NCBI RefSeq assembly: GCF_027595985.1
Contig: NC_073302.1
Location: 217,465,854-217,529,853 of the forward strand
Direction: 5' to 3'
Length of the DNA stretch: 64,000 nucleotides
Source: Sorex araneus
Taxonomy: Eukaryota; Chordata; Mammalia; Eulipotyphla; Soricidae
The translations under genes were made by a program, and so were the position numbers. Below the pieces are notes generated by a model, which was given only the letters and a program-made list of their open reading frames with translations, had not been told where the DNA came from and did not search any database. Positions 1 through 63,619 of the stretch are shown one piece after another. The stretch's first letter is position 1. Each line of letters opens with the position of its first letter.

Positions 1-15
1 GTATATCCAAGAAAT

Positions 16-454
16 TTTAGTCCTTCTTTGTTTTGGCAGCCTAGATCGGCCCTGAGATTTTATCAGCCTCTCCTTGTTCATCCTTCTTAACGCTGCCGTT
101 TTGTGGTCTCTTCCATGGTCAGAGGAAAGAGGCCCATTGTTGTTACTGTTTTTGGAATATTCAATATGCCACGAGTAGCTTGCCAGGCTCTGCCGTGTGG
201 GTGGGATACTCTCACTAGCTTGCCGGGCTCTCCGAGAGGGATGGAAGCTTTTAAGGCAGCCTCCAATCACCATTATAGGTGTTCCGATGGTTCACACCGT
301 ATTTGAACCCCATCAAATACGGTGAAGTAATGATGGAAAATGGGTAGGAAGTGTTTATGATGCAGTCTGGAAAGTGGTCTGGAGCGTGGTGACAGATGGG
401 TAGTGGAGGTCGGCTGATGAGGAATTTTTCTGATACCAGCAGGATGGGTCTTAC
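16..454 (-). mobile_element. Inverted RTE leader segment containing the SINE-body sequence
   Basis: Read on the minus strand, 41-245 matches the body of the RTE-tailed SINEs elsewhere in the window: a CTCTCGGAGAGCCCGGCAAG block, then GCAGAGCCTGGCAAGCTAC, then a GGCATATT-GATATGCC-like block, an AACAGTAACAA block and finally AAAATCTCAGGGC. No tRNA-like head lies upstream; there is unique sequence with a 12-bp hairpin (295-324). The longest match is to the composite elements at 39.3 and 61.4 kb. Being inside the TSDs of an RTE insertion, it is best explained as the RTE 5' leader. Confidence 0.6.
295..324. repeat. Perfect 12-bp inverted repeat (hairpin)
   Basis: CACCGTATTTGA at 295-306 is followed after the 6-nt loop ACCCCA by its exact reverse complement at 313-324. 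It lies in the leader-like part of the RTE insertion. Function unknown. Confidence 0.7.
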
Positions 455-724
455 GCGTGTGACTTCAAAGAAATGGTTAAGAGGACGAAGAACCTCCGAC
501 TCTGGCATATCTTTTCCACTCCACCAGCTCTGAGCACATCTTTTCAACTCCACTGTTCTTCCTGCACTAAAATATGCCTCATAGACCTGGGCCCTATGAA
601 AACAGAATGAGAATGCTATTCAGGTATCCCGAAAGGGAATCAAAAGAGCTATGCTTCGAGTATAATGTTTCACTCAAGTGAGATAAGGAATCCAGAGTTC
701 CGACCTCTGTTGATGATCAAGAAT
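455..724 (+). pseudogene. RTE LINE ORF fragment, region between RT and C-terminus (part 1)
   Basis: Translation gives VVKR-TKNLRLW, then HLFNSTVLPALKYAS-TWAL, KQDENAI and FTQVR-GIRSSELR. The same protein is encoded on the minus strand at 13433-13774, and this part follows the palm domain in RTE-clade reverse transcriptases. A short local duplication near 510-545 and stop codons break the frame. It runs up to AAGAAT at 719-724 and resumes at 1850 on the far side of the nested L1. Non-functional. Confidence 0.75.
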
Positions 725-1843
725 TATGGATGTTATAAGAAGAAAACATCCAATCCCATCAGAAAATGGGGCGAAAATATGAACAGAAAGTTTCTCAAGG
801 AAGAAATACGAGTGGCCAAAAGGCACTTGAAAAAATGCTCTTCATCACTAATCATCAGGGAGATGCAGATCAAAACAACTACGAGATACCACCTCATACC
901 ACAGAGACTGGCACACATCCAAAAGAACAAAAACAACTGCTGTTGGAGTGGATCTGAGGAGAAAGGGACCCTTCTACACTGCTGGTGGGAATGTCAACTG
1001 GTTCAGCCTTTTTGGAAAACAATATGGTCGCTTCTCAAAAAATTAGAAATTGAGCTTCCATTTGACCCAGCAATACCACTTCTGGGAATATGTCCTAGAG
1101 AGGCAAAAAAGTATAGTCGAAATGACATCTGCACTTATATATTCATCAAAGCACTGTTTACAATAGCCACAATTCCAAGTGCCCAAGAACAGATGACTGG
1201 TTAAAGAAACTTGGTATACCTACACAATGGAATACTATGCAGCTGTTACAAAAGATGAAATCATTAAATTTGCATATAAGTGGATTAACATGGAAAGTAT
1301 CATGCTAAGTGAAATGAGTCAGAGAGACAGACATAGAAGAATTGCACTAATCTGTGGAATATAAAACAACAGAATGGGAGACTAACACCCAAGAATAGTA
1401 TAAATAAGTACCAAGTTTGCTCCATGGCTTGGAAGTCAGCCTCACATGCTAGGGAAAAAGGCAGTTCAGATAGAGAAGGGAACACCAAGTAAAATGTGGT
1501 TGAAGGACCTACTCGGGGTGGGAGAGGTGTTATGAAAACAGACTATAGATTGAACACGATGGCCACCCAATACCTCCATTGCAAAACCAGAATACCCAAA
1601 AGGCAAGAGAGAACAAAAGGGAAGGCCATGCCACAGAGGCGGGGTGGGGTGGGAAGGATGGTATGGAAAAGTGGGAGAGATGCTGGGGTCATCAGTGGAA
1701 GAGAACGGGCACTGTTGGAAGAATGGGTACTCAAGCAGTGTATGATTGAAACACTAGCACAAAAATATGTAAATCTGTTTCTGTACCCTCACAGTGATTC
1801 ATTATTAAAAAGTAATTAAAAAACTAACTATGCAAAAAAAAAA
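725..1843 (+). mobile_element. L1, 5'-truncated, 3' end of ORF2 plus 3' UTR, nested in RTE
   Basis: Encodes the ORF2 C-terminus: [30 protein letters not shown], then the Cys/His region with [17 protein letters not shown], in which the second cysteine is replaced by serine, then FDPAIPLLGI. It continues through a G-rich 3' UTR (CACAGAGGCGGGGTGGGGTG at about 1632) to GTGATTCATTATTAAA and a poly-A. AAGAAT at 719-724 and 1844-1849 is the likely short TSD. Joining the flanks across it restores the continuous RTE sequence TCAAGAATCAGGGA, which is also present (on the minus strand) in the copy at 13.5 kb. Confidence 0.85.
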
Positions 1844-1849
1844 AAGAAT

Positions 1850-2156
1850 CAGGGACACTGTCTCATTTGCCAAGGCATCAAAAATCAAATGGGCCGGACA
1901 TGTAATGTGATTTAGCGATGACCGCTGGACTACAGCTGTTACTGACTGTATTCCACAGGACGTCAAAAAAACTCGTGCCCACCCACCTTCGAGATGGTCA
2001 GACTTCTTCATCAAGACCTTGAATGAATGGTTTGAGGCTCTTCGTGTTCCTAGAACAAGCAGATGTCATTGGGCTACACTAGCAAGCAACATTGACAAAT
2101 GGAGGCATTACTGGCACCTGCTCAAACAAACCGATGACCAATGGGATGACAAGTGA
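1850..2156 (+). pseudogene. RTE LINE ORF C-terminus (part 2)
   Basis: In one frame it reads SFAKASKIKWAGHVM, an in-frame TGA, then FSDDRWTTAVTDCIP, DVKKTRAHPPSRWSDFF, IKTLNEW, HWATLASNIDKWRHYWHLL and DDQWDDK, followed by stop. The RWSDFF...HWATLA...DKW..YW run is the conserved RTE C-terminal tail. The last ~55 nt (from TGGAGGCATTACTGG) also occur as the 3' end of the RTE-tailed SINEs. The internal stop shows it is dead. Confidence 0.85.
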
Positions 2157-2360
2157 TACAAGTGATATCCAAGAAATGGATAGGAATATCCTTACACTTA
2201 TTTAAAAAGCATCTAACAAAAACTGTAGCTTTTTTTAAAATCAAGTTTAACGTTGGTAGGATAGTAGGATAGCAATTAAAAAGAAAAGAAAGTTACAATT
2301 AAAAAGAAGAAAATAATCAGTATTTGTGTTAAGTATTTAAAAGAAGAAAATAAGACAGAG

Positions 2361-2548
2361 TTTTTTGTTTGTTTGTTTGTTTTGCTTTTGGGGTCACACC
2401 CAGCAATGCACAGGGGTCACTCCTGGCTCATGCACTCAGGAATCACCGCTGGCAGTGCTCAGGGAACCATATGGGATGTTGGGATTTGAACGGGGTCGGC
2501 CACATGCAAGGCAAACACCCTACCTGCTTTGCTATCACTCCAGCCCCT
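2361..2548 (-). mobile_element. tRNA-derived SINE, A-tailed (SOR-like)
   Basis: Read on the minus strand: CTGGAGTGATAGCAAAGC, a B-box-like block, CCATATGGTTCCCTGAGCAC, then GGGTGTGACCCCAAAAGC and an A-rich tail. GACAGAG at 2354-2360 and 2549-2555 is a possible short TSD. Confidence 0.85.
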
Positions 2549-2599
2549 GACAGAGATTTTTTTAAAAAGGAATCTTTAATGTTTTATTTTACATAAACC

Positions 2600-3000
2600 A
2601 GCCTATAGTACACCATTGAGCATGTCAATGTAACTAGAAAAGCTATGAAAACAAGAAGTACTCAATTAAGGGGAACAGAGCATCATAAAGACACAAATGT
2701 GAGGGACTAAAGTTGCAGATTTTATGAAAACTGACTGAGGACAGCCATATATTCTATGGTATTTTCTATCTTAATCAGCAATGAGAGGAGACCAGTGGAA
2801 AAATACCTTGATAGAACTACAAAAAGAAAAAAAAACATAGGTACTATAGGGAGAGATTATAAATATTAAATTTATAAAGGACAAATTAGAATGTCTTACA
2901 TATGCTTCATGAATCTCAGAAATTTTTGAGAGTAGAATTTTTTAAGTATAATAACAAGAATCAGTAAAGTTTATGAGAGATATCTGAGCACAAATTCAAG
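2600..3000. other. No recognisable feature
   Basis: AT-rich DNA with no coding frame or repeat that I can name. Confidence 0.5.
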
Positions 3001-3615
3001 AATCATCATGTCCTGCTCTCCAGAGCTGCACAAGCGTGAATCCAGACCCAGCTAAACTACTTTTGGCATGGGCAACTCCTCGGAGAATGTCTCCAGCCTG
3101 AGACCTAAGCTTCGGTTTTATGCCCGCTCAGGAGGGGAAAGGTATTTCTCTCTCGCCTCTTCCTTTCTGGGGATGAAGTGCGTGGTGACCGCCATATTAT
3201 GACAACCACAGATGGGGTTTACAAGCTTGCAATGATCCAATATCTGGAAGAAATCTCCCTGGACTTAGTTGTTAAAGTACAGAAATCCAAAACCGCGCGA
3301 CCTCATTTCTCTTCACAACAGGTCTGACTCTAGTGGGGTACTCCTAACAATAATAGTGAGGTTTGTGTTCAAATATTGATTGTAACCAAAGTAAACAGAA
3401 AGTAAAGTGAAACTTATCAGTTACAAGGCGGGGGGGGTGCGGGGGGTGCGGGATGGGAGGTGTACTGTGTGGGTTGTTTTTTTTTTTTGGTGGTGGGATA
3501 TGGGCACTAGTGAAGGGATAGTGGTTTCGGCATTGTATAACTGAGTCTTAAGCCTGAAAGCATTGTAATTTTCCACATGGTGATTCAATAAAATAAAATT
3601 CTTATTAAATAAAAA
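3001..3615 (+). mobile_element. Non-coding retroposon with L1 3' UTR (~615 bp)
   Basis: The flanks AAGAATCATCATGTCCT (from 2998) and AAGAATCACCATGTCCT (from 3618) differ at one position and are the probable TSD. The 3' half (from TTTGTGTTCAAATATTG through a G-rich tract to CACATGGTGATTCAATAAA) matches the 3' UTR of the minus-strand L1s at 15.8 and 45.4 kb. The 5' half, with AACTACTTTTGGCATGGGCA and GCCATATTATGA, matches the element at 25.9-27.2 kb. No ORF2 is present. Confidence 0.7.
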
Positions 3616-3779: not shown

Positions 3780-3965
3780 GGGCTGGAGAGATAGCACAGC
3801 GGGTAGGGCGTTTGCCTTGCACGCGGCCTACCCGGGTTCAAATCCCAGCATCCCATATGGTCCCCTGAGCACGGCCAGGGGTAATTCCTGAGTGCAGAGC
3901 CAGGAGTAACCACTGTGCATCGCCAGGTGTGACCCAAAAAGCAAAAAAATAAATAAATAAATAAA
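3780..3965 (+). mobile_element. tRNA-derived SINE, A-tailed (SOR-like)
   Basis: Starts GGGGCTGGAGAGATAGCAC, has A box TAGCACAGCGGG and a slightly altered B box GGTTCAAATCC, and ends TGACCCAAAAAGC plus (ATAAA)n. TAAAATCACAG flanks it at 3769-3779 and 3966-3976 (11-bp TSD). Confidence 0.95.
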
Positions 3966-7768: not shown

Positions 7769-10308
7769 GTTTCAAATACATATTTCATAGAACATGAATT
7801 CTGGTTATTGCAGCACTTATATTTCAAATGTTTAGATCCCTGGAACCCATTGTGTTTACCCAGACTTTGTATTTTTTATCAAAATTACAAAAGACAAGAA
7901 TTTAATATAATACTCTGGATTGTCTTTACTCACTGTTATTGATAATTATTTCATGATACAGTGAATGTGTATACAGAAATCACTAATTCTAGTCTCATAA
8001 ATAAGTCAAGGATTTATTCTGGATATAAATATTCAACAAAATGAATCGTTACTTCCCATCCTTTACTTACGAAATGATAACCAAAAAAAGCTTTTTATTT
8101 GACAGGAAAAAAATTGGGTCACAAAATGAAGGCAAGATATTGTTACCAGTGTGAGGACAGATCTATCCATTTCACTCATCTCACTGAACTGAGGACCAAA
8201 GGAATAAAATGATTATAGCTCTATCTGGGCCACTGAAGAAATGGAATCATTAGTAAAAAGGCAATGTAGCAGGGTGCTCATTTCTAATCCTAACTCCTGG
8301 GAAGCACTGTAGGAAGTGGGGGAAGGGGGTAATAGAATTAGAGAAGCACCTTCTCTTCATCTATTTTGATGTTATTTTTTTAAAAAATGTAGCTTCAACC
8401 AAAAACCCCTTAATACCATCCCTGTAAAACATAATGTGTCTGTATTGACACAAGTATTTATATAATGTCTGTCTTTACTCTAAGAAATAGTAACATTTTA
8501 TTTTTAGGGTGCAGATTTTAAAAGTCAGTTTAAAGTGTTTGAACTTTCCTACCTCTATACATCCAAAGAAAAAGGCCAAGAGTAATCTATGTTATCACTA
8601 ACACTAAACTGAAAGAACTTCAAAAGCAAAACATATCAAATGGTACCTCTTTACTCAATAGCTTTGAATTGAATAACTCTAAAACTCATTTTCACAAGGA
8701 AAGATGCAGTTTGATAATGATATAAGCAAGTTACTCACAAAACTGTGAACATGATCATTCTTATGATTGTCATTTAAATAGAAATCTTAAAATCTCAATA
8801 TTTCTCAGCATTCAAATTAATATTTCTCAAATAAAAATCACATTATTTTAGCATTGTTTGTTGAATGTTTCAGATGAGTCAGTTGGACACTGCTTTTTAG
8901 AAAAAGTGGAAGAAAAGGCTAATAGATAACCTTCCATGGAGAAATAATGCAACCAATGATTTGGGAGGTTTCAATTTGTTCATATAACTAATTTAGAAAG
9001 AAAATCTCCCCCGGAAGATAAGGAGACAGCAACCACAGAATAAAAACACTCTCTTTAGGATGAAAGCATCCAAAATTTGGTGGTGGGAAGATGTAATGGT
9101 GGTGGGATTGGTGTTCAAATACTAAGCTTAATCAAATATTATAAACTAGTTTATAAAAATAAAATAAAATTAACAATATATAAACCCTGTTTTGTAAGAT
9201 TTGGGGGAAAGGGAGAGTTTCTGTGGAATTGGATTTAATGTATTGTCAAGATATTTAAAAAAAAGAACAAAAATCTTTGTAACTCATTTTAAATTACATG
9301 CTGAGTATAAAAATGTCTTTAATGTTTTTATTAGCATCCACAATGGCTGAAATCCATATCTTACTTCTAACCTTCACATAAAAGTTCTTCAGAATCTATG
9401 GACTATTACTCAATATCACCCACATTGATTTCTTTTGCCCAGTGTGGTATATTTCTTCACTTCAGAGAGTTGACAAGTTCAAATTTCATCTTTATTAGTA
9501 CATCTATCAAAGTGTCTTTAAATCTCTTTTCCTCTAATGCCTCTATCTTTTCATTATCTTTTATATTAATATATGAAAATTACCTTTCTGGGGTTAATGT
9601 TACTCCACAAATGACAATATAAAACAGTTTATCTCCACTATAACAACAATAAAGTTGTTATAAATTTGTTATAATCAAATTTGGGGGGATCCTGTAGCCT
9701 CATAAAAACAGGTTAGGGGGGCAGATGTCAGCCCATACATTTAATGTATAGCCTTGCAGTCATAGGGGTGCCCTGCTTTTCTTGGTATGTCTGCTCCATT
9801 TTCTGTCTTGCAGACTTGGTAAATCTACCCAAACTTGAACTTTCTCTAAGACATTTCAGCTTGGGTCTAAGTGGGAAATATCTGACCCTATCCGGCCCCA
9901 GCTGGATATTTTCACCTAGGTCTGAACTGTCCTTATACTGGTTTAACCCAAGACACGGCCTGTATTTTCAGGCAATTTCCCAACAAGGATCAAGGGAATA
10001 GTTAAAGAAGAAATGCCACTAAAATTATGTCAGAATGTAGAGCAGAATTTAAAATTCTCAGATCAGCAAGAGAAATGTGTGATTGTAGGAAGATGGTAGG
10101 ATTTTAAAATGGAAGAACCACATTCCAAAATGGAGAACAGTGATGACTTTGTTAGCTATAAATTTTTTTTCTGTTTCAGGTGGCACTCTAATGGCTAAGC
10201 TCAAGAATTTTCTTTGCTTTCACTTATTTCAGAGACTGCTTAGGGCTAAATCCTGGGTGATGTTATGGATAATCTTAAAGGCAGATATGTTAACTCCTAC
10301 TCCCTTAT
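7769..10308. other. No recognisable gene
   Basis: Mostly AT-rich. Around 9076-9170 a GGTGGTGGGATTGGTGTTCA segment followed by AATAAAATAAAATT resembles the extreme 3' end of an L1. Around 9683-10000 there is a slightly GC-richer stretch with an 85-codon frame that I cannot assign. Confidence 0.4.
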
Positions 10309-10552
10309 ACCACTGTATCACTGTCATCCTGTTGCTCATCGATTTGCTCGAGTGGGCACCAGTAATGTCTCCACTGTGAGACTTGTTAGTATTTTTGACA
10401 TATCAAATATGCCACGGGTAGCTTGCCAGGCACTGCTGTGTGGGTGGGATACTCTGTAGCTTGCCAGGCTCTCTGAAAGGGACGAAGGAATTGTATCCGG
10501 GTCGGCTGTGTGCAAAGCAAACACCCTACCAGCTGTGCTATCACTCCAGCCT
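10309..10552 (-). mobile_element. RTE-tailed tRNA-derived SINE
   Basis: On the minus strand it has a tRNA-like head (GGCTGGAGTGATAGCACAGC with a degraded B box), body blocks GGCAAGCTACCCGTGGCATA and GATATG, and ends ACTGGTGCCCACTCGAGCAA followed by ATCGATGAGCAACAGGATGA, the RTE-derived tail. Confidence 0.9.
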
Positions 10553-10620
10553 ACTCCCCTACAGAGATAAAATCCTGGAAAAACAGAAACCAAGGATTTC
10601 GCTTTCACAGGGATCGAAAA

Positions 10621-12984: not shown

Positions 12985-13160
12985 GTATATATAGAGATAG
13001 CACAGTAGTTAAGATAATTGCCTTGCACATAGCAAAATCTAGATAATCCTGGCACAATTTATAGTTCCCAAGCAATAACAAGAATATTCTGAAGCACAGA
13101 GCTAGGAGGAAGCACTAAGTACTACCCCTCAAGGAAAATAAAATAAAACAAAATAAAATT
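12985..13160 (+). mobile_element. Old tRNA-derived SINE, target of the RTE insertion
   Basis: GAGATAGCACAGTAGTTAAG and TTGCCTTGCACATAG, then GAAGCACAGAGCTAGGAGG and an (AAAAT)n tail. The RTE copy that follows is inserted in this A-rich tail. Confidence 0.65.
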
Positions 13161-14371
13161 CACCTGTATCACTTGTTTTCACGTTGATCTTCCATATGCT
13201 CGAGCAAGTGCCAGTAACGTCTCCATTTGTCCCTGTCACATGCTAGTGTAGCCCAGTGATATCTGCTTGCTCCAGGAACAGGAAGAGCCTTAAACTGTTC
13301 ATTCAGGGTTTTGACAAAGAAGTCTGACCATCTCGTTGGTGGGCAGCCAGGAGGTCTTTTGATGTCCCATGGAATCTAGTCGGTAACAGCTCTAGTCCAG
13401 CAGTCGTCTCTGAATCTCATTACATGTCCAGCTCATCTGATTTTTGATGTCTTGGCAAACGAGATAGCATCCCTGATTCTTGACCATCGACGGAGGTCGG
13501 AACTCCGGATTTCTTCTCTCACTTGAGTGAGATGTGATACTCCTAGCATGGCTTTTTCAATTCCTCTTTGGGATACCCAAAAAGCGTTCTCATCCTGTTT
13601 GTGTAGGGCCCAGGTCTCTGAGGCATACTTTAGTGCAAGAAGAACAGTGGAATTGAAAAGATGTGCCCAGAGTCGGAGGCCCTTTTTCCTCTTAACCACT
13701 TCTTTGACGCTTTTGAAGGTGTTCCATGCTGCTCTCTTCCTCCTGCGCACTTCTGGTGCCAAGTCATTCCTCATGTTGAATTCTCAACTCAGGTACACAT
13801 AGCTTCTGCATTCGAAGATGTTCATTCATTGAGATCAAATGGAGCGTCGGGGACTAGTTCGTTTTTCATGAGCATTGTCTTGTTGAGGTTCAGCTGCAGT
13901 CCGACCTTTCCCACTTGCGGTAAAAGTCGGCCAGCATTTGTGCCACTTGGCTAATGTTTGGCATTATGAAAACAATGTCATCAGCGAAGCGGAGGTGGTG
14001 TGGTTGCCGATCATCTATCTTCACTCCCATTCCTACCCATTGCAGTTGTCACATGACGTTCTCATGAGAGTGGCACTGAAGAATTTCGGTGAAATGGTAT
14101 CGCACTGCCCAACCCCTCTCTTTACGTCAATGATCATTTCCTTGTAGAATGGTGAGATCCTGGTAGTGAACCCGTAATACTGCTCACAGAGGATCTTGAT
14201 GTACTGAGTTTGAATGCCTTGTTTGGCTAGAGCTTTGGTGATCACTTCAATCTCAACAAAATCGAAGGCCTTCTTTAAGTCGATGATGAACGTTAGACAG
14301 AGCGGCATCTTGAACTCTCACGAAACTTCAATGAGTTTGGTCACTGTGTGGATATGGTCAATCGTGCTGAA
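13161..14371 (-). pseudogene. RTE LINE ORF: reverse transcriptase palm to C-terminus
   Basis: Minus-strand translation in order: FSTIDHIHTVTKLIEVS, PLCLTFI-DLKKAFDFVE (RT motif with the first catalytic Asp), IDVKRGVGQCDTISPKFF, HHLRFADDIVFI at about 13969-14001 (FADD motif at 13977-13988), MRNDLAPEVRRRKRAAWNTF, LKYASETWALHKQDE, QVREEIRSSDLRRWSRI, then [36 protein letters not shown] and stop. The order and motifs are those of the RTE clade. From memory the protein looks much more like nematode RTE than like BovB. Scattered stops and frameshifts make it a pseudogene. Confidence 0.85.
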
Positions 14372-14401
14372 TCAGTCATGGATATGGTCAACAGTGCTGA
14401 A
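14350..14401. repeat. 30-bp tandem duplication at the inversion junction
   Basis: GGATATGGTCAATCGTGCTGAA (22 bp) at 14350-14371 recurs with two substitutions at 14380-14401, separated by TCAGTCAT. It sits where the minus-strand and plus-strand halves of the RTE copy meet. Confidence 0.85.
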
Positions 14402-14402
14402 C

Positions 14403-14569
14403 AGCAGGACTGTTCTGTTGTACAAGAAGGGAGACATCCACGACATCAGCAACTATTGCCCAATTTGCCTGCTGTCTGATGTCTACAAGTTGTTCACTCG
14501 TGTCATCCTGAATAGAATAGGCAGAACACTATGTAAAGGAAAACAATGTGAGCAAGCCATGTTCCAAAA
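14403..14569 (+). pseudogene. RTE LINE ORF, inverted segment upstream of the palm
   Basis: Plus-strand translation gives SRTVLLYKKGDIHDISNYC, PICLLSDVYKLFTRVILNRI and GRTLCKGKQCEQAMF, the RT finger region. In an intact RTE this directly precedes the FSTIDHIHTVTK segment that begins the minus-strand part, so the inverted piece ends almost exactly where the other starts. Confidence 0.85.
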
Positions 14570-14601
14570 AAGGAAAATAAAATAAAATAAACAATAAAAT
14601 T

Positions 14602-17505: not shown

Positions 17506-17894
17506 AAAGTCATAGTGGATAGCAAGGAAAGGAATGGTATGTTTTAAGTTTCAAATGAAATCTTCCTATTAAACAAGAATTATATATCCAGTTGAACTAT
17601 CCTTTAAAAAAAAAGAAAGAAAGATAAATATACTTACCCTGAACCAAAAGTCTAGGTAGTTTTATTAACAGCATCCATGCTCTATAATGAAAGCAAAAGA
17701 AAACTTCCGATTGAAGTACAAAGCAATAGTAACATGAAATTCTACAGAAAGGAAGTTAGGACAATGCTGGAGGGTCTTGGGTAAATTAGTGGGAGAAAGG
17801 ATATAAGAACTTTGCAAAATAATAAAATAAAAACATACAAATTACATTATTGTTACCATGTGAATAAAAACAAATAATTTTAAAAGTAAAATAG

Positions 17895-18080
17895 GGGGCT
17901 GGAGCAATAGCACAGTTGGAAGGGCATTTGCCTTGCACGCGGCTGACCCAGGTTCGATTCCCAGCATCCCATATGGTCCCTTGAGCACCGCCAGGGGTAG
18001 TTCCTGAGTGCACAGCCAGGAATAACCCCTGTGCATCTCAGGGTGTGACCCAAAAAGCAAAATAATTAAAAAATCAAAAA
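17895..18080 (+). mobile_element. tRNA-derived SINE, A-tailed (SOR-like), recent
   Basis: Perfect 14-bp TSD TAAAAGTAAAATAG at 17881-17894 and 18081-18094. Head GGGGCTGGAGCAATAGCAC, B box GGTTCGATTCC, tail GTGTGACCCAAAAAGC plus A-rich. Confidence 0.95.
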
Positions 18081-18155
18081 TAAAAGTAAAATAGAATAAT
18101 TAAAAACTAAAGATTTCTGATAAATATAACACAAAAATATCCGTTATATTATTAT

Positions 18156-18407
18156 GGGCTGGAGCGCTAGCACAGCAATAGGGCATTTGTGTTTCATGAG
18201 GCCGACTAGTGTTCGATTCCTCCGCCCCTCTTGGAGAGCCCTGCAAGCTACCGAGAGTATCGTGTCAGTGTGGCAGAGCCTGGCAAGCTACCTGTGGTGT
18301 ATATGATATGCCAAAAACAGTAACAATAAGTCTCACAATGAGAGACGTTACTGGTGCCTGCTCAAACAAATCGATGAGCAACGGGATGACAGTGACAGTG
18401 ACAATGA
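18156..18407 (+). mobile_element. RTE-tailed tRNA-derived SINE, recent
   Basis: 11-bp TSD TATATTATTAT at 18145-18155 and 18408-18418. Head GGGCTGGAGCGCTAGCACAG, B box GTTCGATTCC, body CTTGGAGAGCCCTGCAAGC and GGCAGAGCCTGGCAAGCTAC, tail ACTGGTGCCTGCTCAAACAA then ATCGATGAGCAACGGGATGA and (CAGTGA)n. Confidence 0.95.
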
Positions 18408-18418
18408 TATATTATTAT

Positions 18419-28256: not shown

Positions 28257-28275
28257 ATTCTAGTTAAGGCTTATT

Positions 28276-28525
28276 GGGCTGGAGAAATAGCACAGCGGTT
28301 GGGCATTCGCCTTTCACACGACCGACCCATGTTCAATTCCTCCGCCCGTCTCAGAGAGCCTGGCAAGCTACCAAGAGTATTGAGCCCACGCAGCAGAACC
28401 TGGCAAGCTACCCGTGTGTATTGGATATGCCAAAAACAGTAACAATAAGTCTCTCAATGAGAGACATTACTGGTGCCTGCTCGAACAAATTGATGAGCAA
28501 CGAGGTGACAGTGACAGTGACAGTG
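28276..28525 (+). mobile_element. RTE-tailed tRNA-derived SINE
   Basis: TSD AAGGCTTATT (28266-28275) and AAGGTTTATT (28526-28535). Head GGGCTGGAGAAATAGCACAG, A box TAGCACAGCGGT, body AACCTGGCAAGCTACCCG, tail ACTGGTGCCTGCTCGAACAA then ATTGATGAGCAACGAGGTGA and (CAGTGA)n. Confidence 0.95.
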
Positions 28526-28930
28526 AAGGTTTATTACCCATATAAAACTTTTGAGTTAGATTCAACTTGCTACATAATTATAATTTGTTAATTTTCTGTT
28601 ATCATCTTGTTAATAAAATCTAGTCATAGTGTTATCTCTGAGATTCCTACCCTGGAGAGTTCTCCTTATGTTATTTCCTGAACTGATTTTGTGAAAACTT
28701 GTCTAATGTTGAAGTTTTTAATCCATTTTGATTTAACTTTTGTTTTTTATGTGAGATAGATGTAATAATTTTTCATTTGATTATTAAGTATTCCCATTAT
28801 CACTCGTTGAAGAGATTTTCCTTTGGCCTCTTCATAAATCAACTCATTTGTATCACTTCTTGAACTTTTTGTTAAAATCAAGTGTAATATTTATCTTATT
28901 GGCCATGAGCTCTTTTGACTACTCCATAAG

Positions 28931-37440: not shown

Positions 37441-38008
37441 TGCCTCTCTCGCCAGGCTGTCTTCACTGGGACACCTCAGAGGGGGGGCGGTTTGAGTTTC
37501 CCTCCCCACCCCAAGCAGAGCCTTGGCAGCTGAAAACCTCCAGAACCCAGCCACAGCCATGTTCAAGGCCACCCAGCCACAGCCATGCTCAAGGACACTC
37601 TCCACACGTTCAGATGAGCCTCACCCATAGAGGAACTGACAGAGGAACCCAGGTATGCAGGACCCATGGTTGAGATCTCTAAGCCTGCTCAGATCGGGAC
37701 TGGGCCTCCTCCACCCAGGTCCCCCATATTCCAGTAACTTGGCAGCCACACCCACAAACTGCCTCCAATGCCATGTAATCTCATCAACAGCCAAGATCCA
37801 GAAACTATAAAACAAACCTCCCAGAAGAAAGTAATGCAGAATCTTGCACAGCAGAACCTGGCAAGCTATCTGTGGCATATTTGATATGCCAAAACTAGTA
37901 ACAATAATGGGCCTCATTTTCCTTCTCCTGAATGTGACAGGGATGAATAAGACGTCACTGGCACCCACTCGAGCAAATTGATGAGCAACTTGACCACAGT
38001 GATACAGT
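37441..38008 (+). mobile_element. Composite RTE-tailed retroposon (leader module + body + RTE tail)
   Basis: The ~390-bp GC-rich module (GAACCCAGCCACAGCCATG, CAGATCGGGACTGGGCCTCC, CAGAAACTATAAAACAAACC) is followed by the SINE body (AACCTGGCAAGCTATCTGTG, GATATGCC), a linker and the RTE tail (CACTGGCACCCACTCGAGCA, AATTGATGAGCAAC). No tRNA head. The module is about 85-90% like those at 39.7 and 61.1 kb by eye. Confidence 0.7.
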
Positions 38009-38551
38009 GATCTATATATATGATTTTATGAATTAATGTTATGTCAGTAAAATGCAAATATTAATTAAGAGGAATATAAATACAAATTAAAATAATAAAT
38101 AGGTCTTCCCAAAGGAGCGTGTGGCAGCATCATTAGAACATAGCTTCTGGTATCAAGTTATGAATGATGTTGAGGAGTCATATATAAAAATACCCCAGAA
38201 ACAGAAGCCTTGATTTCTATTCTTGGCAATGGCAGATATTATCTTGCAATTGCTCTTGCAAACCCTTAACTCTAACTTAAAAATTTAAGTTTAAAATGAC
38301 TACAGGAGACCAAGAAGGTCAGATAGATAAACTAGAACCAGAGTGAACCAGAAAGTCCATGCCATAACTAAAAGGAACGGGCCTTTTACAGTCCCAAGTG
38401 ATTGTTGCCAAAGCCCATATTTTCCAACATTTCTATATAGTTCTAAACATAATTTTTATGTGAAATACTCTGATTTATACATTTTAGCATCTAATTCAAT
38501 ACTTTAGAAATATTGTAATTATCAAAGCACACTTGGCCTAGATATAGCTCA

Positions 38552-39000: not shown

Positions 39001-39314
39001 ACAAACATGTTAAAATTATCATTGACTTCCATATAATATGTATTTTACTATTGAATAAATGTTCAAAATTCATGTGGCACTCTGGCTCTGATCTTTCATT
39101 TTAGTAACATTTCTGATGAACTACATCAAATTTCATGAAATTTCTATAGCATTTTTTAGATACAATAAGATAATATATTTAAAATGTCTATAATGTTTTG
39201 AGTGTTATGCAAATGTTAAGATGAGAAGTAACAGTGTGTAGACCAATCTGATTCATCATAAACTTCTACGTCAGATGAAAATTTTCTAAAGAAGAATTAA
39301 AATCATTAAAAATG

Positions 39315-40149
39315 AATATCACTATATCACTGTCATCCCGTTGTTTGTCGATTTACTTGAGTGGGCACCAGTAACGTCTCTATTACACTCAGCCCTGAGA
39401 TTTTAGCAGCCTCTCCTTACTTGTCTTTCCCAACAATTGGAGGCTCTTTCAGGGTCAGGGGAATGGGAATGAGACCTATCGCTACTGTTTTTTGATATAT
39501 CGAATATGCTACAGATAGCTTGCCAGGCTCTGCCTGTGTGGGCAGATACACTCGGAAGCTTGCTGAGTTTTCTGAGAGGTATATATATATATATATACAT
39601 ATGTTACTATATTTGAGATATGAATATGCCACGGGGAGCTTGCCCAATTCCCCCCTGTGGACAATAAACTCTCAGTAATTTGTCAGGTTCTTCAAGAGGG
39701 AGAACTAGGCTATTATATGTCACTTCTGGGAGCTTGGTTTTAGTTTCCGAATGTTGGCCATTGATGGGATTACACGGCTCCAGGGGCAGTTTCTGGGTGT
39801 GACTGCCTAGCTACTGGAAAATGGGGGATCTGGGTGGAAGAGGACCAGTCCCAATCTGAACAGCCTTGGAGATCTCGGCCCCGGTTCCCACACACCTGGG
39901 TTCCTCTGCCGGTTCCTTCATGCTGAGGCTTGTCTGAACATATGGAGATTGGCCTTGAGCAGGCTGTGGCTGGGTTCCAGAGGTCTTCAACTTTCAAATC
40001 TCTGCTTGGGGCGGGGAGGGAAAGGCAACCCGTCTCTTTCGAGGGGCCCCGGTGAAGACATCCAGGCACGGGGGACAAGAGACTCTGCGTTGCTCTTTTC
40101 TGGGAGTTTGGTTTTATAGTCTCTGGATATTGGCCGTTGATGGGATTAC
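39315..40149 (-). mobile_element. Composite RTE-tailed retroposon, longest copy
   Basis: Minus strand: RTE tail (complement of 39325-39385), linker with TGCTAAAATCTCAGGGCTGA, GAGCCTCCAATTGTTGG, SINE body, then the GC-rich leader module up to 40149. A (TA)n run interrupts the body at 39580. Part of the leader is repeated: TTCTGGGAG...GGTTTTA...GGGATTACA at 39724 recurs at 40098 (374-bp period), which suggests a tandem promoter monomer. A TATAAAA-like signal lies in it. Confidence 0.7.
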
Positions 40150-44064: not shown

Positions 44065-44318
44065 CTTTTGAAACTTGGAAGTTAATTGGCTCCAAATAAT
44101 ATTCACTCTTGGACATCGTTTTTTCGATTTAAACCTCAGTTGCCCTTATTTCCTAGCATCCCAAAAGCAGGGTCCCAAGGAGGGACTGGATGGACCCAGG
44201 GCAAGCTGTGAGCTACTCTGGCATCAAAATATGCCAGGCCAAAGTGCCATAATACTTAACTATAACTTTAGAGCATGGTTATGGACAAATTTGTCATGAT
44301 CCAAAAAGTAACAACTAG

Positions 44319-44515
44319 GGGCCGGAGCGATAGCACAGCGGGTAGGGCGTTTGCCTTGCACGCGGCCGACCCGGGTTCGATCCCCGGCATCCCATATGGT
44401 CCCCCAAGCTCTGCCAGGAGTAATTCCTGAGTGCAAAGCCAGGAGTAACCCCTGAGCATCGCTGGGTGTGACCCAAAAAGCAAAAAAAATAAAAAAAATA
44501 AAAAAAATAAAAAAA
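44319..44515 (+). mobile_element. Very young, near-consensus tRNA-derived SINE (SOR-like)
   Basis: Perfect 17-bp TSD CAAAAAGTAACAACTAG at 44302-44318 and 44516-44532. A box TAGCACAGCGGG (44331-44342) and B box GGTTCGATCCC (44374-44384) fit the pol III consensus (TRGCNNAGYNGG, GGTTCGANNCC), 31 nt apart. The head aligns with tRNA-Ala(UGC): GCGTTTGCCTTGCACGC, then GGGTTCGATCCCCGGCATCC. The tail is (CAAAAAAAATAAAAAAA)-like. Best reference copy of the family here. Confidence 0.97.
44331..44384 (+). promoter_or_regulatory. Internal pol III promoter (A and B boxes) of the SINE
   Basis: TAGCACAGCGGG and GGTTCGATCCC, both without mismatch to the consensus. Confidence 0.85.
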
Positions 44516-46670: not shown

Positions 46671-46712
46671 ACCTATTATATTTTTAAGTCTTTATTTCTT
46701 TCCTAAATGTAT

Positions 46713-46900
46713 CACTGTCATCCTGTTGCTTATTCATTTGCTCATGTGAGCGCCAGTAACATCTACATTCATCCCTGTTGCATGCTAGTGTAGCCCAATG
46801 GCATACTGGGGGCTCTTTCAGGGTCAGGGAATGAGAACCATCATTGTTACTGTTTTGGGCATATTGAGTACATCACGGGTAGCTTGCGAGGTTCTGCCGT
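46713..46900 (-). mobile_element. RTE-tailed retroposon with extended RTE 3' coding sequence
   Basis: Perfect 14-bp TSD TTTCCTAAATGTAT at 46699-46712 and 46901-46914. Minus strand: SINE/leader body (GCAAGCTACCCGTGATGTAC, AACAGTAACAATGATGG, ACCCTGAAAGAGCC) joined to ATTGGGCTACACTAGCATGC, which is RTE coding sequence (HWATLA region), and the normal RTE tail. It carries about 45 nt more RTE coding end than the other SINEs. Confidence 0.85.
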
Positions 46901-46914
46901 TTTCCTAAATGTAT

Positions 46915-47377
46915 TATAGACAAATCATGTCACATTTTTTTCTCTTATTGTTTTTTTCTTTTTTGAGTGGGGAGGGGAGAGGGGGGAGGATTTCCAGTAG
47001 CAATGAGAAAGCCTGCTAGACAAATTCTAAAAGAGCCGCAACACTTCACCCCAATTCTTAGTGTGGCTTGGCCCTTACCACGATATCAAGGATGGACTCT
47101 GACTGCATGCATTAAATTTATCAGTTGTTTATTTCTCTTTAGTGAAACAATTGATTCACAAAATAACATACAACTGCAATAAAACAATCAAAATTCAGAG
47201 GTATTTATGAAGAAATTATGCACAATTTATGTTATGAAAAACTTTCCATGAATTAGCTTAAAACTGAACTGTATTTTAAAAAAATGGGTTGAATTCACAT
47301 TTTATCAAATATGATTTAAAACATACCTAAAAATATTTTAGCAAATCTCAAGAGTTAAATAAAGCATGTGTCCAGGA
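46915..47377. other. No recognisable feature
   Basis: Includes a purine-rich GAGTGGGGAGGGGAGAGGGG tract near 46965; nothing coding. Confidence 0.45.
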
Positions 47378-50118: not shown

Positions 50119-50860
50119 CATTATATGCAGTCTTTGAAAGGACATGTATCCCCAGAAACAAGAATATTAATTTAAAAGAACATCAAATATCTATGCTCAC
50201 TTCAGTGTTTAGTACAGTAGTCAAAATATGAAACACACCAAATTCCCCATTGTTACTGTCACTGTCATCCCATTGCTCATCGATTTGCTGAAGCAGGCAC
50301 CAGTAACATCTCTATTGTGAGACTTCTTGTTACTGGGTTTGGCATATCGAATATGCCCTGGAGCTTGCCAGGCTCTGTTGTGCAGGCTAGAGACTCTCAG
50401 TACCTTGCCCGTCTCTCGGAGAGGGGTGGAGTAATCGAACCCGAGTCGACTGTGTGCAAGGCAAGCGCCCTATCCATTATGCTATCGCTCAGCCCATTAT
50501 GGATGAATAAATCTACTATGGATGAAGGTTAGATATGTATACACAATGAAATACTATGAAGCTCTAAGAAAAGACATAATCATGTAATCGTTCACCACAT
50601 GGAAGAAACTGGAGGGCATAGTAATTAGTGAAGTCATTTAGAAGACAGATATAGGATGTTCTCTCATATGTAGAATTTAACTATAAAAAAAACAACTTGC
50701 CAAAGGCACGGAACTAGTGAGTGGATTCATAGAACTGAGTTTGGGGAACTGGAGATAGGACACCTGTGAAAATTGGATACTCTAGTGGTTGTAATGGTGT
50801 GTGCATGAAACCATCATTAATGGCATCATAACTCACAGTATTTCAATACAGATTTAAAAA
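50119..50860 (+). mobile_element. Older L1 3' end, interrupted by a SINE
   Basis: 50119-50251 and 50493-50860 read as one diverged L1 3' end: ATACACAATGAAATACTATG, GAAGCTCTAAGAAAAGACAT, CATGGAAGAAACTGGAGG and TCTCTCATATGTAGAATTTA, ending CAGTATTTCAATACAG. It lacks the 3' UTR types of the younger copies. Confidence 0.7.
50252..50492 (-). mobile_element. RTE-tailed tRNA-derived SINE
   Basis: CCCATT at 50246-50251 and 50493-50498 is a short TSD. Minus strand: head CTGAGCGATAGCATAATG, B-box region CGGGTTCGATTACTCC, body CTCTCCGAGAGACGGGCAAG, tail ACTGGTGCCTGCTTCAGCAA then ATCGATGAGCAATGGGATGA. Confidence 0.9.
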
Positions 50861-52829
50861 GACGTACAATGGCAATATGATAAAACATGGTAAAGAAGCT
50901 AACTAAACTTATTTGAACAAGAGTAAAATTCTAAACTATAAAACTTATTTTAAAGATTTAAATATACATGATGGAGAAAAACTGAGTACTGGCCAAATCT
51001 TTATTGAGAGCTATGGATAAAAAAGTGAAGTTCCTACCATGAGAGGAAGATAGTTGTTGCAACCTGAGATCTGATTAAATGTCAATATTGATGAATGTTT
51101 GAGATACTTTAATGCCACTGAGGCAGTTTTGGCTTATTCAGTAGTGGTGTCTATATTTCTTCTGATTGTAATTCTCTCCATGTACTGGCTAACATTTTTT
51201 TTCAGCAAATATTTAACATTGTGCTAAGGGTTACATCAGTTAGAGTCTTAATTATCATTATGAAAGATGATGCTTCTAGCTTCAGAGACTGTTTCATGTT
51301 TGTTACCTCTCATGGAGACAGTGCTAAATAGATGCCTCTTTGTTTGACTTACAGAAAATGTTATCTAAGAAGTATCATGTCATGGTAGACTTGAGAAAAG
51401 TAAAGTACACTGTGCCTAAAGTTCAGTGAAAATTGCAAGATGTTACTTCCTATTATGTAAATCTGATAAAATGGTAGGAAACCTATAAACAGGAAACTGT
51501 ATACACTGAGAGCTACCAATCCTATAATAGACCAAATTCATCTCCCTGCTGTTTTCAAAACCAGTTGAAAGACAGCCTACGGAAGATCAGAAAGTGTATA
51601 CATGAAACCTTACAGAATGTGATCAGCAGATTGCACTGACACAGACAGAAAATCACGCTGACCTTTTTTACAACACCCACAGGTGTGGCTCTCCACATGC
51701 TGCTACATTAATTGTACTTTCTCCCTTCTTTTCAAAATCCTTTTTCTCACTTTAAAGTTTAGTTCCATATATAGTTTAAGCAAAATAACATTAACCTCAC
51801 CGAAACTCTGAAATACAAAACTCTTTCAAATCAAGGGAAGCCCTCAAAGTCTTGTGTGCAAATGTTTAAAAATATTCTAATTTTTTGCATCAAAAACATA
51901 GAAAGGATCTTTAATCTGAACAAAATAAATGTAGCCCAAGACTAAAAAATGACAATCTTTTGTATTAGGCCACTATACAACAGAGACTGCTCAAGCAGAA
52001 GACTCTATAATTGCTTTGACAATTAAAAACGTACAAATACCAAGCTGCCGAAAGAAGATTATCTAAGTCTAGTAATTTGCTCTCCTGCTTGGCAGACAGA
52101 CTGCTTAAGGGCATATCACAAGAACATACAATTTGTTGTATAATGGTCGTGACATTTTCAGCCATCATTACTGCTATAGATAAAAGTCAACCAAATGTAT
52201 TATGTCAAACACTAGGTAGTGATGGTATGAATTTTAAAAGCATACTTAAATAAGAACCAGCAAAATGATAATAAGGAAATTTAATTCTGTCCCTTATTTT
52301 AATAGCAATGCACTTGAATTAACAAGCCAAGCTTAACATTTCACAGGTACTAAACTCGGAGTTTATTTCTCATTGATAGATGATTAAAAATGTTTTCTCT
52401 TTACATTTCTTGAACACCCATATTATTGTATTATATGCAAACTTTTAGAAGATACAAAAATAATTTTAACTTAACATTCTCAATAATTCTCACATTGTTA
52501 AAAAAAAACTTTGGAAAGCTTTATGATTTTTCCTATCTTTTCTGATGTCAAAATCTCAGAGTTTTTTATTTAATAGTGAGAAAAATGTAATAAAAGTATC
52601 TTGGATATGGATTTATTTATTGTGATATCCATAAAATTCATAGAATATAGTCAGCCTCTCATAGGTGGGTAGAACAGTAATATCTAACACTGATTAAGAA
52701 TTTTCTATAAACACTCTTCTGAGAATGCTGTTACTTGTCTTATTAACACCACAATACAGTTAACTAAAGTGGTACTAATATTATTACTATTTTGTAAATG
52801 AGTTAATTTACAGAAATATTGCATATCTT
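50861..52829. other. No recognisable gene or repeat
   Basis: Non-repetitive-looking DNA, slightly less AT-rich around 51480-51720. No exon-like frame with splice sites that I would defend. Confidence 0.45.
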
Positions 52830-52840
52830 ATTAGTAGTTA

Positions 52841-53097
52841 GGACTGGAGCAATAGAAGAGCCGGTAGGACTTTTGCCTTGGATGCGGCTGACCCGGGTTC
52901 GATTCCTCCACCCCCTTGGAGAGCCTAGCAAGCTATTGTGAGTATCCCGCCTATATGGCAGAGCCTGGCAAGCTACTCTTGGCATATTGCATATGCCAAA
53001 AACACTAACAACAAGTCTCACGATGGAGATCTTACTGGTGCCCGCTTGAGCAAATCGACGACAGTGCTACGACAGTGCTACGACAGTGCAGTGCTAC
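52841..53097 (+). mobile_element. RTE-tailed tRNA-derived SINE with altered tail repeat
   Basis: TSD ATTAGTAGTTA (52830-52840) and ATTAGTAGCTA (53098-53108). Head GGACTGGAGCAATAGAAGAG, B box GGTTCGATTCC, body GGCAGAGCCTGGCAAGCTAC, tail ACTGGTGCCCGCTTGAGCAA then ATCGACGACAGTGCTA; the terminal repeat is GACAGTGCTAC three times instead of CAGTGA. Confidence 0.95.
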
Positions 53098-53277: not shown

Positions 53278-54973
53278 TTTTTTTTTTTTCAATTGCCATA
53301 TATCTTTTATTTATTTATTTTTTTTTTAAATTTATTTATTTTTAATTAGAGAATCACCGTGAGGGTACAGTTACTGATTTATACACTTCTGTGCTCACAC
53401 TTCCCTCATACAAAGTTTGGGAACCCATCCCTTCACCAGTGCCCATTCTCCACCACCCGTAAACCCAGTGTCCCTCCCACCCTCCCCAATCCCATCTCCC
53501 CCCCACCCCACCCTGCCACTGTGGCAAGGCATTCCCTTCTGCTTTCTCTCTCTAATTAGCTGTTGTGGTTTGCAACAAAGGTGTTGAGTGGCCGCTGTGC
53601 TCAGTCTCTAGCCCTCATTCAGCCCGCAACTCCCTTCCCCCACATGGCCTTCGACTGCAATGTAGTTGGTGATCGCTTCTCTGAGTTGACCTATCCCCGG
53701 AACTTGAGGCCAGCCTCGAAGCCATGGAGTCAACCTCCTGGTACTTATTTCTACAGTTCTTGGGTGTTAGTCTCCCACTCTGTTATTCTATATACCATAG
53801 ATGAGTGCAATCTTTCTATGTCTGTCTCTCTCTTTCTGACTCATTTCACTCAGCATGAAACTTTTCATGCCCATCCACTTAACTACAAAATTCTTGACCT
53901 CCTTTTTTCTAACAGCTGCATAGTATTCCATTGTATAGATGTACCAAAGTTTCCTCAACCAGTCATCCGTTCTGGGGCATTCGGGTTTTTTCCAGATTCT
54001 GGCTATTGTAAACAGTGCTGCGATGAACATACATGTGCAGATGTTGTTTCGATTGTACTTTTTTGCCTCTCTGGGATATATTCCCAGCAGTGGTATTGCT
54101 GGGTCAAATGGGAATTCAATATCTAATTTTTTGAGAGTCGTCCAAATTGTTTTCCAGAAGGGCTGAACCAGTCGGCATTCCCACCAGCAGTGAAGAAGGG
54201 TCCCTTTCTCCCCACATCCTCTCCAACAGCGGTTGCTTTTGTTCTTTTGGATGTGTGCTAGTCTCTGTGGTGTGAGGTGGTATCTCAAAGTTGTTTTGAT
54301 CTGCATCTCTCTGATGATTAGTGATGCAGAGCACTTTTTCATGTGCCTTTTGGCCATTCGTATTTCTTCCTTGGTAAAGTTTCTGTTCATTTCTTCGCCC
54401 CATTTTTTGATGGGGTTGGATGTTTTCTTCTTGTAGAGTTCAACCAGTGCTTTATATACCATTGATATCAACCCCTTATCTGATGGGTATTGTGTAAATA
54501 TCCTTTCCCATTCTGTGGATAGTCTTTGTATTCTGGTCACTGTATCTTTTGCGGTGCAGAAGCTTTTTAGTTTAATGTAGTCCCATTTGTTGATCTCTGT
54601 TTTTACTAGATTGCTTAGTTCCGTGTCACCCTTGAAGATACCCTTATCTTCAATATCGTGGAGGGTTTCGCCGACCTTGTCTTCAATGTACCTTATGGTT
54701 TGTGGTCTAATGTTGAGGTCTTTAATCCATTTTGATCTGACTTTTGTGCATGGTGTCAGGTCAAGGTCTAAACCCATTTTTTTGCATGTGGTTGTCCAGT
54801 TGTGCCAGCACCATTTGTTAAAGAGGCTTTCCTTGCTCCACTTCACTTCTCTTGCTCCCTTATCAAAGATTAGATGGTCATACATTTGGGGTTGTGTGTA
54901 GGGATATTCCACCCTGTTCCATTGGTCTACGTCTCTGCCTTTGTTCCAATACCATGCTGTTTTAATTGTTACT
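53278..54973 (-). mobile_element. L1, 5'-truncated, young, 3' UTR variant ii
   Basis: Perfect 16-bp TSD GGGAAGCATCATTTTA at 53262-53277 and 54974-54989. Contains an uninterrupted ORF2 C-terminus, a 3' UTR with a G-rich tract (complement of CCCACCCTCCCC) and a long heterogeneous A-tail (53278-53345 complement). Confidence 0.95.
53788..54912 (-). pseudogene. L1 ORF2 C-terminus, 374 codons open
   Basis: The frame runs without a stop from the 5' truncation to the natural stop after RKIALIYGI. Motifs: [57 protein letters not shown], then the complete CX3CX7HX4C motif at residues 229, 233, 241 and 246 of this frame, then FPFDPAIPLLGIYPREAKKY and WYIYTMEYYAAVRKKEV. The RT catalytic part is absent, so it cannot be active. 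Openness marks a recent insertion. Confidence 0.9.
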
Positions 54974-58125: not shown

Positions 58126-58229
58126 TCAATTTCCTAATGAAATATTGATTATATCAGCTACTATAAACAATTTATCTACATTTTGATATGTTTCTAGATC
58201 AGAAATCTTCAAAATATTCTTATGATGTA

Positions 58230-58320
58230 GCACTGTAGCACTGTCATCCCGTTGTTCATCGATTTGCTCGAGTGAGCACCAGTAACATCTCCATTGCGAG
58301 ACTTGTTTTTTTTTATTTGA
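58230..58320 (-). mobile_element. 5'-truncated RTE-tailed SINE (~90 bp)
   Basis: Perfect 12-bp TSD TCTTATGATGTA at 58218-58229 and 58321-58332. Minus strand: AAATAAAAAAAAACAAGTCTC, then GCAATGGAGATGTTACTGG, TGCTCACTCGAGCAAATCGA, ACAACGGGATGACAGTGC. Only the RTE tail was inserted, preceded by an A run not found in other copies. Confidence 0.9.
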
Positions 58321-58332
58321 TCTTATGATGTA

Positions 58333-61038: not shown

Positions 61039-61722
61039 AGTCTCTTGCACCCACTACTGGCTGTTTCACTAGGGACCCTCGGAAGGGGGCGTGTTGAGTT
61101 TTTCTCCCCACCCTGAGCAGAGTCCCATCAGCTGAGACCTCCAGAACCCAGCCACAGCCATGCTCCAGGCCACTCTCTAGACATTTGAACGAGCCTCTCT
61201 CATGAAGGAACCGGCAGAGGAACCCAGGTGTGCGGGACCCAGGGCTGAGATCTCCAAGCCTGCTCGGATCGGGACTGGGCCTTCTCCACCCAGATCCCCC
61301 ATTTTCCAGTAGCTTGACAGCCACACCCACAAACTGCCCCCTGGCCGGCCACATATTATCCCACCAACGGCCAAGATCCAGAGACTATAAAACAAAGTTC
61401 CCGGAAGCACGTGGCCGAGTTGGCGGCTGTTTAACCTTTTATAGCCTAGTTCTCCCTCTTGAAGAACCTAGCAAGGTACCAAGAACGTCCTGCCCGCATG
61501 GCAGAGCCTGGCAAACTTCCCATAGTGTATTTGATATGCCAAATACAGTAACAATGATGGATCTTATTCCCTTTACCCTGAAAGAGCCTCCAATGCGGCA
61601 CCACTGGGAAGAACGAGTAAAGAGAGGCTGCTAAAATCTCAGGGCTAAAATGAATGGAGACATTACTGGCGCCCACTCAAGTAAATCGATGATCAATGAG
61701 ATGACAGTAATACATTGATATA
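61039..61722 (+). mobile_element. Composite RTE-tailed retroposon, preceded by rRNA sequence
   Basis: GC-rich leader module (GAACCCAGCCACAGCCATG, CGGATCGGGACTGGGCCTTC, CAGAGACTATAAAACAAAG), link GTTTAACCTTTTATAGCC, SINE body (GGCAGAGCCTGGCAAACTTC, GATATGCC), linker ACCCTGAAAGAGCCTCC to GCTAAAATCTCAGGGC, and RTE tail (CATTACTGGCGCCCACTCAA, ATCGATGATCAATGAGATGA). No tRNA head. TATAAAA at about 61386 could serve as a promoter element. TSD not found. Confidence 0.75.
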
Positions 61723-61924
61723 CAGTGAAATATGTGTGAAGTTACTTATTCTTTCAGAGCTTTAAAAAATCTTCATTATTTTTAATGAATTCTGACATAT
61801 ATAATGGTATACATAAATATTTCTTCTGGAAAACCTAATCAAGTGTAGAGGTCATGACAATACTTTAATCCCCACTTTTCATAGTCATAAAAAACATTCT
61901 TTTTTCCCATTTATTAGTCTTGGA

Positions 61925-62960: not shown

Positions 62961-63171
62961 TTTCTTTCTACAAAAGACAGTAATTTGATTTGTAATCATA
63001 GTATTCTTCCCACATGAAATTTTTATATTGCAATAGAAATTCCTACAGACTAATCCTTAACCAAACGGCGATATAAGATTAAAATGGTTTTATAGAGGAA
63101 TTGATTAAATAGAACAGATGAGAATAAATATTAATGATAGTATCTTATAATAATAGTATTTATTTTATATT

Positions 63172-63442
63172 GGGCTGGAACGATAGCACAGCGGTAGGGC
63201 GTTCACCTTGCACGCGTTTGATTCCTCCGCCTGTTTGATTCCAACTGTTTGATTCCTCCGCCCCTCTCGGAGAGCCCGGCAAGATACCGAGAGTATCACG
63301 CCCACACGACAGAGCCTGGCAAGCTACCCGTGGCATATTCGATATGCCAAATACAGTAACAATAAGTCTTACAATGAGAGACGTTACTGGTGCCTGCTCG
63401 AACAAATCTATGAGCAACAGGATGACAGTGACCGTGAAAGTG
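63172..63442 (+). mobile_element. RTE-tailed SINE, recent, with triplicated B-box region
   Basis: Perfect 10-bp TSD ATTTTATATT at 63162-63171 and 63443-63452. Head GGGCTGGAACGATAGCACAG, A box TAGCACAGCGGT. GTTTGATTCC occurs three times (63216, 63233, 63247). Body and RTE tail are otherwise standard. Confidence 0.95.
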
Positions 63443-63619
63443 ATTTTATATTATTCTTTATATATGTACATATATATATAGTAGTACTCAAAGCATTCTA
63501 CACATAGTTCTTTATTTAGTCAGGTAGTTGTCAAGATTGCAGGAGAAAAGGGGCATGGTCTGGATGATAAGCAGATCTTTACTTTTCAAGTATAGGCTCC
63601 AAATTAGGTTAATGCTAAA

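Follow-up and report, generated by a model that had tools for sequence, protein, structure and literature searches.

Copies of a strongylid-type RTE retrotransposon in the common shrew and a bipartite SINE apparently built from both of its ends

Two RTE insertions in the shrew window

The window, that is the whole stretch of 64,000 nucleotides of the Sorex araneus genome analysed here, contains an RTE-clade LINE that inserted at two places independently (13161–14569 and 3–2177), as the preliminary description had claimed, and each insertion has its own target-site duplication. The insertion at 13 kb consists of the following parts:

13131–13148: target-site duplication, left, AAGGAAAATAAAATAAAA, 18 nt
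13165–14373, minus strand: RTE LINE copy, from the RT domain to the C-terminus and 3' end (RTE 2017–3221), with frameshifts and stops
14392–14569, plus strand: inverted 5' part of the insertion (RTE ~1836–2037; coding 14403–14570)
14570–14587: target-site duplication, right, AAGGAAAATAAAATAAAA, 18 nt

Its minus-strand part matches an RTE protein of Haemonchus contortus far above chance (tblastn, E 2.5e-120 at 14368–13172), and a shared word of 18 nt was reached by only one of 1983 random flank pairs. The copy had been read as one joined minus-strand translation; this reading fails, since frameshifts and stops interrupt the frame and 14403–14570 is an upstream RT segment lying on the plus strand, a 5' inversion like those made by twin priming. 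The other insertion, copy 1, which had been given as 16–2164, is again an RTE insertion: it comprises an inverted 5'UTR piece and two C-terminal pieces with an L1 between them. The duplications of copy 1 were read from the sequence; the random control refers to the 13-kb copy.

3–15: target-site duplication, left, ATATCCAAGAAAT, 13 nt
14–362, minus strand: inverted piece of the RTE 5'UTR (RTE 32–374)
465–736, plus strand: C-terminal coding piece (RTE ~2680–2919)
737–1843, plus strand: L1 3' end with A-rich tail, an 89% repeat of the L1 at 53996–54435
1844–2168, plus strand: C-terminus and 3' end (RTE 2906–3227)
2165–2177: target-site duplication, right, ATATCCAAGAAAT, 13 nt

Copy 1 also matches the H. 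contortus protein (tblastn, E 4e-32 at 1809–2153). The motif RWSDFF and the HWATLA...WHLL stretch, which had been reported from both insertions, do occur in both; FADD, reported likewise, is found in the 13-kb copy only, because copy 1 lacks that region. The open reading frame of the L1 at 53996–54435 matches human L1 ORF2p (E 2.4e-160), and as the L1 nested in copy 1 is a repeat of this element, a host L1 moved after the arrival of the RTE. Many L1 loci have a 1291-residue open frame (G000); recent L1 activity in the shrew genome seems likely.

Strongylid relatives of the shrew RTE

In the assembly searched (2.406 Gb, 65 contigs), the H. contortus protein gave at least 79 matches on 11 contigs, with 65–78% identity, from a search that scored the best 78 of 101,775 first-look candidates; four of the 79 are free of stops in the matched part. 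The 30 best copies differ from the column majority by 0.0175–0.0406, and the two window copies by 0.075 and 0.152 (K2P, CpG columns excluded in both cases). The closest pair among the 30 RTE copies differs at 6.6% of sites, versus 0.7% among eight L1 loci; from the closest-pair and majority distances, therefore, the RTE looks silent today, as far as the best candidates that were scored can tell, and L1 looks recent. The N-terminal region is partly inverted in 4 of the 30 loci (L010, L018, L032, L036) and in both window copies, so that 5' inversions are frequent in the shrew RTE. In most of the 30 copies the 3' terminus is made of (TACAAGTGA)n-like repeats, with several departing from this pattern; 3' ends that are short and carry a repetitive tail other than poly(A) are an RTE trait.

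A cleaner copy from the same genome, L010, served as protein query and for the identities. Its translation matches RVT_1 (PF00078) with 93 bits against a cut-off of 29.6, consistent with an RTE-clade reverse transcriptase. For the endonuclease, Pfam was run on a nematode relative (P0103), which carries PF03372, of the Exo_endo_phos kind, at residues 4–236; shrew copies such as L009 and L025 were placed by alignment to this protein, which they match from residue 1 on. Among the matches listed for the joined window protein (the best 120 of 674) and for L010 (the best 120 of 1236), all rows named to organism are nematode, beside some unnamed rows. The named genera are Haemonchus, Necator, Nippostrongylus, Ancylostoma, Parelaphostrongylus, Heligmosomoides and Angiostrongylus, with Caenorhabditis auriculariae among the matches listed for L010; apart from the last, we take them to be strongylids. 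Most of these strongylid genera are named in PMC6542046.

L010 is 74% identical to H. contortus, 72–73% to N. brasiliensis and 67–68% to H. polygyrus, being by plain identity less close to H. polygyrus than to H. contortus, and different strongylid species in the same table share 66% to 80% with each other. The preliminary description had placed the protein closer to nematode RTE-1-like proteins than to BovB. Searches, trees and identities all agree that it is nematode-like and not BovB; the nearest relatives are the strongylid RTEs, with identity falling to 45% for C. auriculariae, the only Caenorhabditis protein compared. BovB shares with the shrew element an RTE-type reverse transcriptase and horizontal spread, but L010 is only 25% identical to it over 217 aligned residues and BovB forms a separate branch in both trees; a BovB identity is accordingly rejected. 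Two ruminant-type BovB proteins (P0172, P0196) are filed under Cutibacterium acnes, on contigs of 1.1–1.3 kb, and are probably cattle DNA in bacterial records.

The tree that had been proposed as a check, with BovB and nematode RTEs, puts the shrew copies with the strongylid type. In a 33-row tree, the window copy groups with H. contortus, H. polygyrus and N. brasiliensis (97/97) and adjoins the latter two (91/86). When ten shrew copies and other nematode RTEs were added (40 rows), the 11 shrew rows formed one clade (100/100) and joined the strongylid type in a clade supported at 98/100; support went down to 83/74 for the join of the shrew rows to H. polygyrus and N. brasiliensis, and to 81/37 for the larger group that includes H. 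contortus. Because the shrew RTE lies near nematode RTEs and not near BovB, its spread was horizontal, and a transfer between the shrew and strongylid groups is clear. Such a transfer is already known: Dunemann & Wasmuth (2019, PMC6542046) reported RTE1_Sar as common to the common shrew and strongylid nematodes, with a patchy distribution and the same sister group, H. polygyrus and N. brasiliensis, expressing low confidence in that placement; PMC8384839, in its accessible text, merely cites this work. Like RTE1_Sar as published, the window element is abundant in the shrew, placed beside these two worms by the best trees, star-like in its copies and decayed, and no difference was found by the published description. 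We infer, by comparison with the published description, that the window insertions are copies of RTE1_Sar.

The direction of transfer is a separate matter. Of the parasite-to-shrew transfer first proposed, the horizontal part stands; the direction is not settled by the trees, in which the shrew rows join the two worms at 83/74. Forcing the 20 strongylid-type rows into one clade without the shrew costs 2.6 log units and is not rejected (p-AU 0.446), and the claim that the trees prove a worm-to-shrew direction was dropped after this test. The same result would suit a transfer in which strongylid nematodes took the element from a shrew ancestor, or a third source that supplied both; we consider this rather unlikely, as the best trees place the shrew clade beside two worms and as PMC6542046 reads nine nematode species and one mammal as a nematode origin, although its age landscapes left the direction unconfirmed; among heligmosomoid worms that live in shrews it names Longistriata. 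A passage from nematode to shrew is the probable direction.

A bipartite SINE with parts of both RTE ends

Six SINEs in the window are each made of a tRNA-like head of ~72 bp, a block of ~111 bp from the RTE 5'UTR and a tail of 54–70 bp from the RTE 3' end:

10291–10560, minus strand: bipartite SINE
18147–18410, plus strand: bipartite SINE, 11-nt target-site duplication
28267–28530, plus strand: bipartite SINE
50248–50505, minus strand: bipartite SINE
52829–53091, plus strand: bipartite SINE
63163–63444, plus strand: bipartite SINE, 10-nt target-site duplication

In these six, the block aligns with RTE 141–251, in the 5'UTR of copy A, at 78–86% and the tail with the 3' end of that copy at 77–87%. 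RTE copies A, B and C are 89–92% alike over ~3.2 kb including the 5' block, which is therefore RTE sequence; this part is missing from copy D. Two tails still encode a nematode-like C-terminus, reading LEQIDEQRDD and LEQIDEQQDD (E 7e-4 and 9e-4), where the H. contortus and N. brasiliensis proteins end in LEEIDDQRDDR and LEQIDDQRDDR. The two flanks have an exact word of at least 9 nt in common in 4 of 13 SINE copies, the other nine having a shorter one or none; a 9-nt word was reached by 74 of 1983 random pairs, in the control of the 13-kb duplication with its larger flanks. The majority sequence of 12 SINE copies yields a tRNA-Ala(TGC) call, one of three candidates, only when ARAGORN is run with a relaxed setting.

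Most young RTE copies end in GATCAACGGGACTACAAGTGA. A GATGACA-type end, nearer the nematode C-terminus, is found in L009, L035, window copy 1 and the SINE tails. The SINE may descend from an older RTE subfamily.

Further RTE-derived stretches in the window have no head or are fragments:

39312–39701, minus strand: headless RTE deletion, 5'UTR 146–342 + 3' end 3160–3227
61453–61729, plus strand: headless RTE deletion, 5'UTR 147–343 + 3' end 3160–3227
46699–46900, minus strand: headless RTE deletion, 5'UTR 192–289 + 3' end 3129–3230, between ATACATTTAGGAAA repeats
37845–38014, plus strand: RTE-derived fragment, 5'UTR 191–267 + SINE-like tail
58228–58332, minus strand: RTE 3'-end or SINE-tail fragment

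These deletions bear on the reverse route, in which a piece of a host SINE would have been taken up by the RTE to form its 5'UTR. The nematode relatives were compared as proteins, which leaves this route some room; nevertheless it is improbable, for the headless deletions hold the RTE 5'UTR, joined to the same 3' end, as far as ~343 while the SINE holds it to 251, the SINE tail encodes the RTE C-terminus, and the passage from LINE to SINE has been described for other RTEs (PMC7245038, PMC4844689).

A putative U7-headed SINE at 46702–47046 was considered and rejected: an A-rich stretch follows the U7 copy, and the adjoining headless RTE sits between its own ATACATTTAGGAAA repeats. The U7 snRNA match itself (46985–47046, minus strand; 53 bits, gathering score 34), with the A-rich stretch after it, is probably a retropseudogene made by L1.

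Abundance was estimated from 60 random 2-kb pieces (120 kb; 60 of 120 positions drawn). They contained 13 RTE-derived stretches, namely seven with head and RTE part, five headless and one coding, against none in the reversed sample, and the head alone occurred in 31 further stretches. Scaled to the genome, the seven in 120 kb correspond to 140,000 bipartite SINEs (56,000–289,000), and all RTE-derived stretches to 261,000 (139,000–446,000). The window is richer: its 64 kb yielded 16 records, of which some belong to the same copy, a density with a probability of 0.002 under the rate of the sample. One of the seven sampled SINEs (L077), with a poor head and tail, was excluded from the set of 12 copies used for divergence; these differ from their majority by 0.044–0.127 without CpG (mean ~0.10). 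At a rate of 2.2–4.5e-9 per site per year, uncalibrated for shrews, this mean gives a loose figure of 22–45 million years. The SINE would thus date from around or before the origin of shrews, put at 30 million years (PMC11544316), and the suggestion is that other shrews carry it.

Similar heads also occur outside the bipartite SINE:

3780–3845, 17891–17961, 44316–44492 and 2473–2546: A-tailed SINEs whose heads resemble that of the bipartite SINE

One A-tailed SINE is called tRNA-Ala(TGC) at 3784–3856, with a score beneath the Rfam cut-off. The primers of the shrew assay in PMC8608897, listed there as Soricidae-specific, match the A-tailed SINEs of the window. With up to two mismatches, the forward primer has 3 sites in the window and 22 in the 120-kb sample, the reverse primer 5 and 23 and the probe 1 and 9, and none of them has a site in the reversed sequences; these matches indicate that the host is a shrew. 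The A-tailed SINE resembles the bipartite one in its head and differs in having an A-rich tail, as in SINEs mobilised by L1, and no RTE part. The two families, having like heads, therefore seem to share the head and to differ in their LINE partner.

Proposed history and comparison with known systems

These results are very probably best explained by copies of RTE1_Sar, an RTE LINE that was transferred horizontally between the shrew lineage and strongylid nematodes. A single entry into the shrew lineage would have been followed by multiplication through target-primed reverse transcription and by decay; the SINE and the headless deletions combine both RTE ends, and the RTE enzyme may have mobilised the SINE by way of the 3' end that the two elements have in common.

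RTEs as a group are old and have a wide distribution, and vertical inheritance, from an ancestor common to nematodes and mammals, might be considered on that ground. We found no evidence in support of it, and it is highly improbable: 72–74% protein identity across phyla, in a non-functional repeat, is about that of strongylid genera among themselves (66–80%), and reads of hedgehog, solenodon and mole gave no significant hits according to PMC6542046. Contamination by worm DNA, which might be suspected since relatives of Trichuris and Trichinella were reported in an earlier shrew assembly (PMC6542046), is so very unlikely that we reject it, because the copies lie on 11 contigs of a mammalian genome, one (C1) of 452.7 Mb, with target-site duplications in host DNA, an L1 nested within one copy and 13 RTE-derived stretches in 60 random pieces versus none in the reversed control.

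The published transfer of RTE1_Sar between shrew and strongylids, a case of exchange between host and parasite, is confirmed here independently, in a chromosome-scale assembly. What is added is the bipartite SINE from both RTE ends, not met in the literature searched, to which Repbase, Dfam and SINEBase did not belong; the words SINE, UTR and non-autonomous have no occurrence in the main text of PMC6542046, where the SINE and the 5' inversions go unmentioned, and the text available of PMC3183009 and PMC4476161 has nothing on a shrew RTE SINE. We lean, by a modest degree, towards a fuller reading in which a LINE that the shrew has in common with parasitic nematodes was the source of a new and very abundant SINE in the shrew lineage, with copies on the order of 100,000, formed by deletion within the RTE and by fusion to a tRNA-like head also present in the host's L1-type SINE with an A-rich tail; this build came about independently following the AviRTE transfer between birds and nematodes. 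The SINE copies, at ~10% from their majority without CpG, are of such an age that all living shrews may have the SINE, and shared SINE sites could thus date the transfer: a SINE from a transferred RTE would make the date testable, as sites shared among Soricidae and lacking in moles would bracket the event. If this is true, it would show how a large class of repeats in a mammal can grow from a single transfer.

RTE deletions of the bipartite kind occur commonly, and some of them acquire RNA heads (PMC7245038). The RTE SINEs of hagfish belong to other RTE families and another host, with no parasite transfer stated in the accessible text of PMC7245038, but they are like the shrew SINE in joining an RNA-derived head to part of the RTE 5'UTR and the 3' end by way of internally deleted RTEs. 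AviRTE, compared here by description, differs in its birds and filarial worms and in its heads from tRNA-Glu, 5S, 28S and others; it resembles the shrew RTE in being common to a vertebrate group and nematodes and in having SINEs with a tail of 5'UTR and 3'UTR (PMC4844689).
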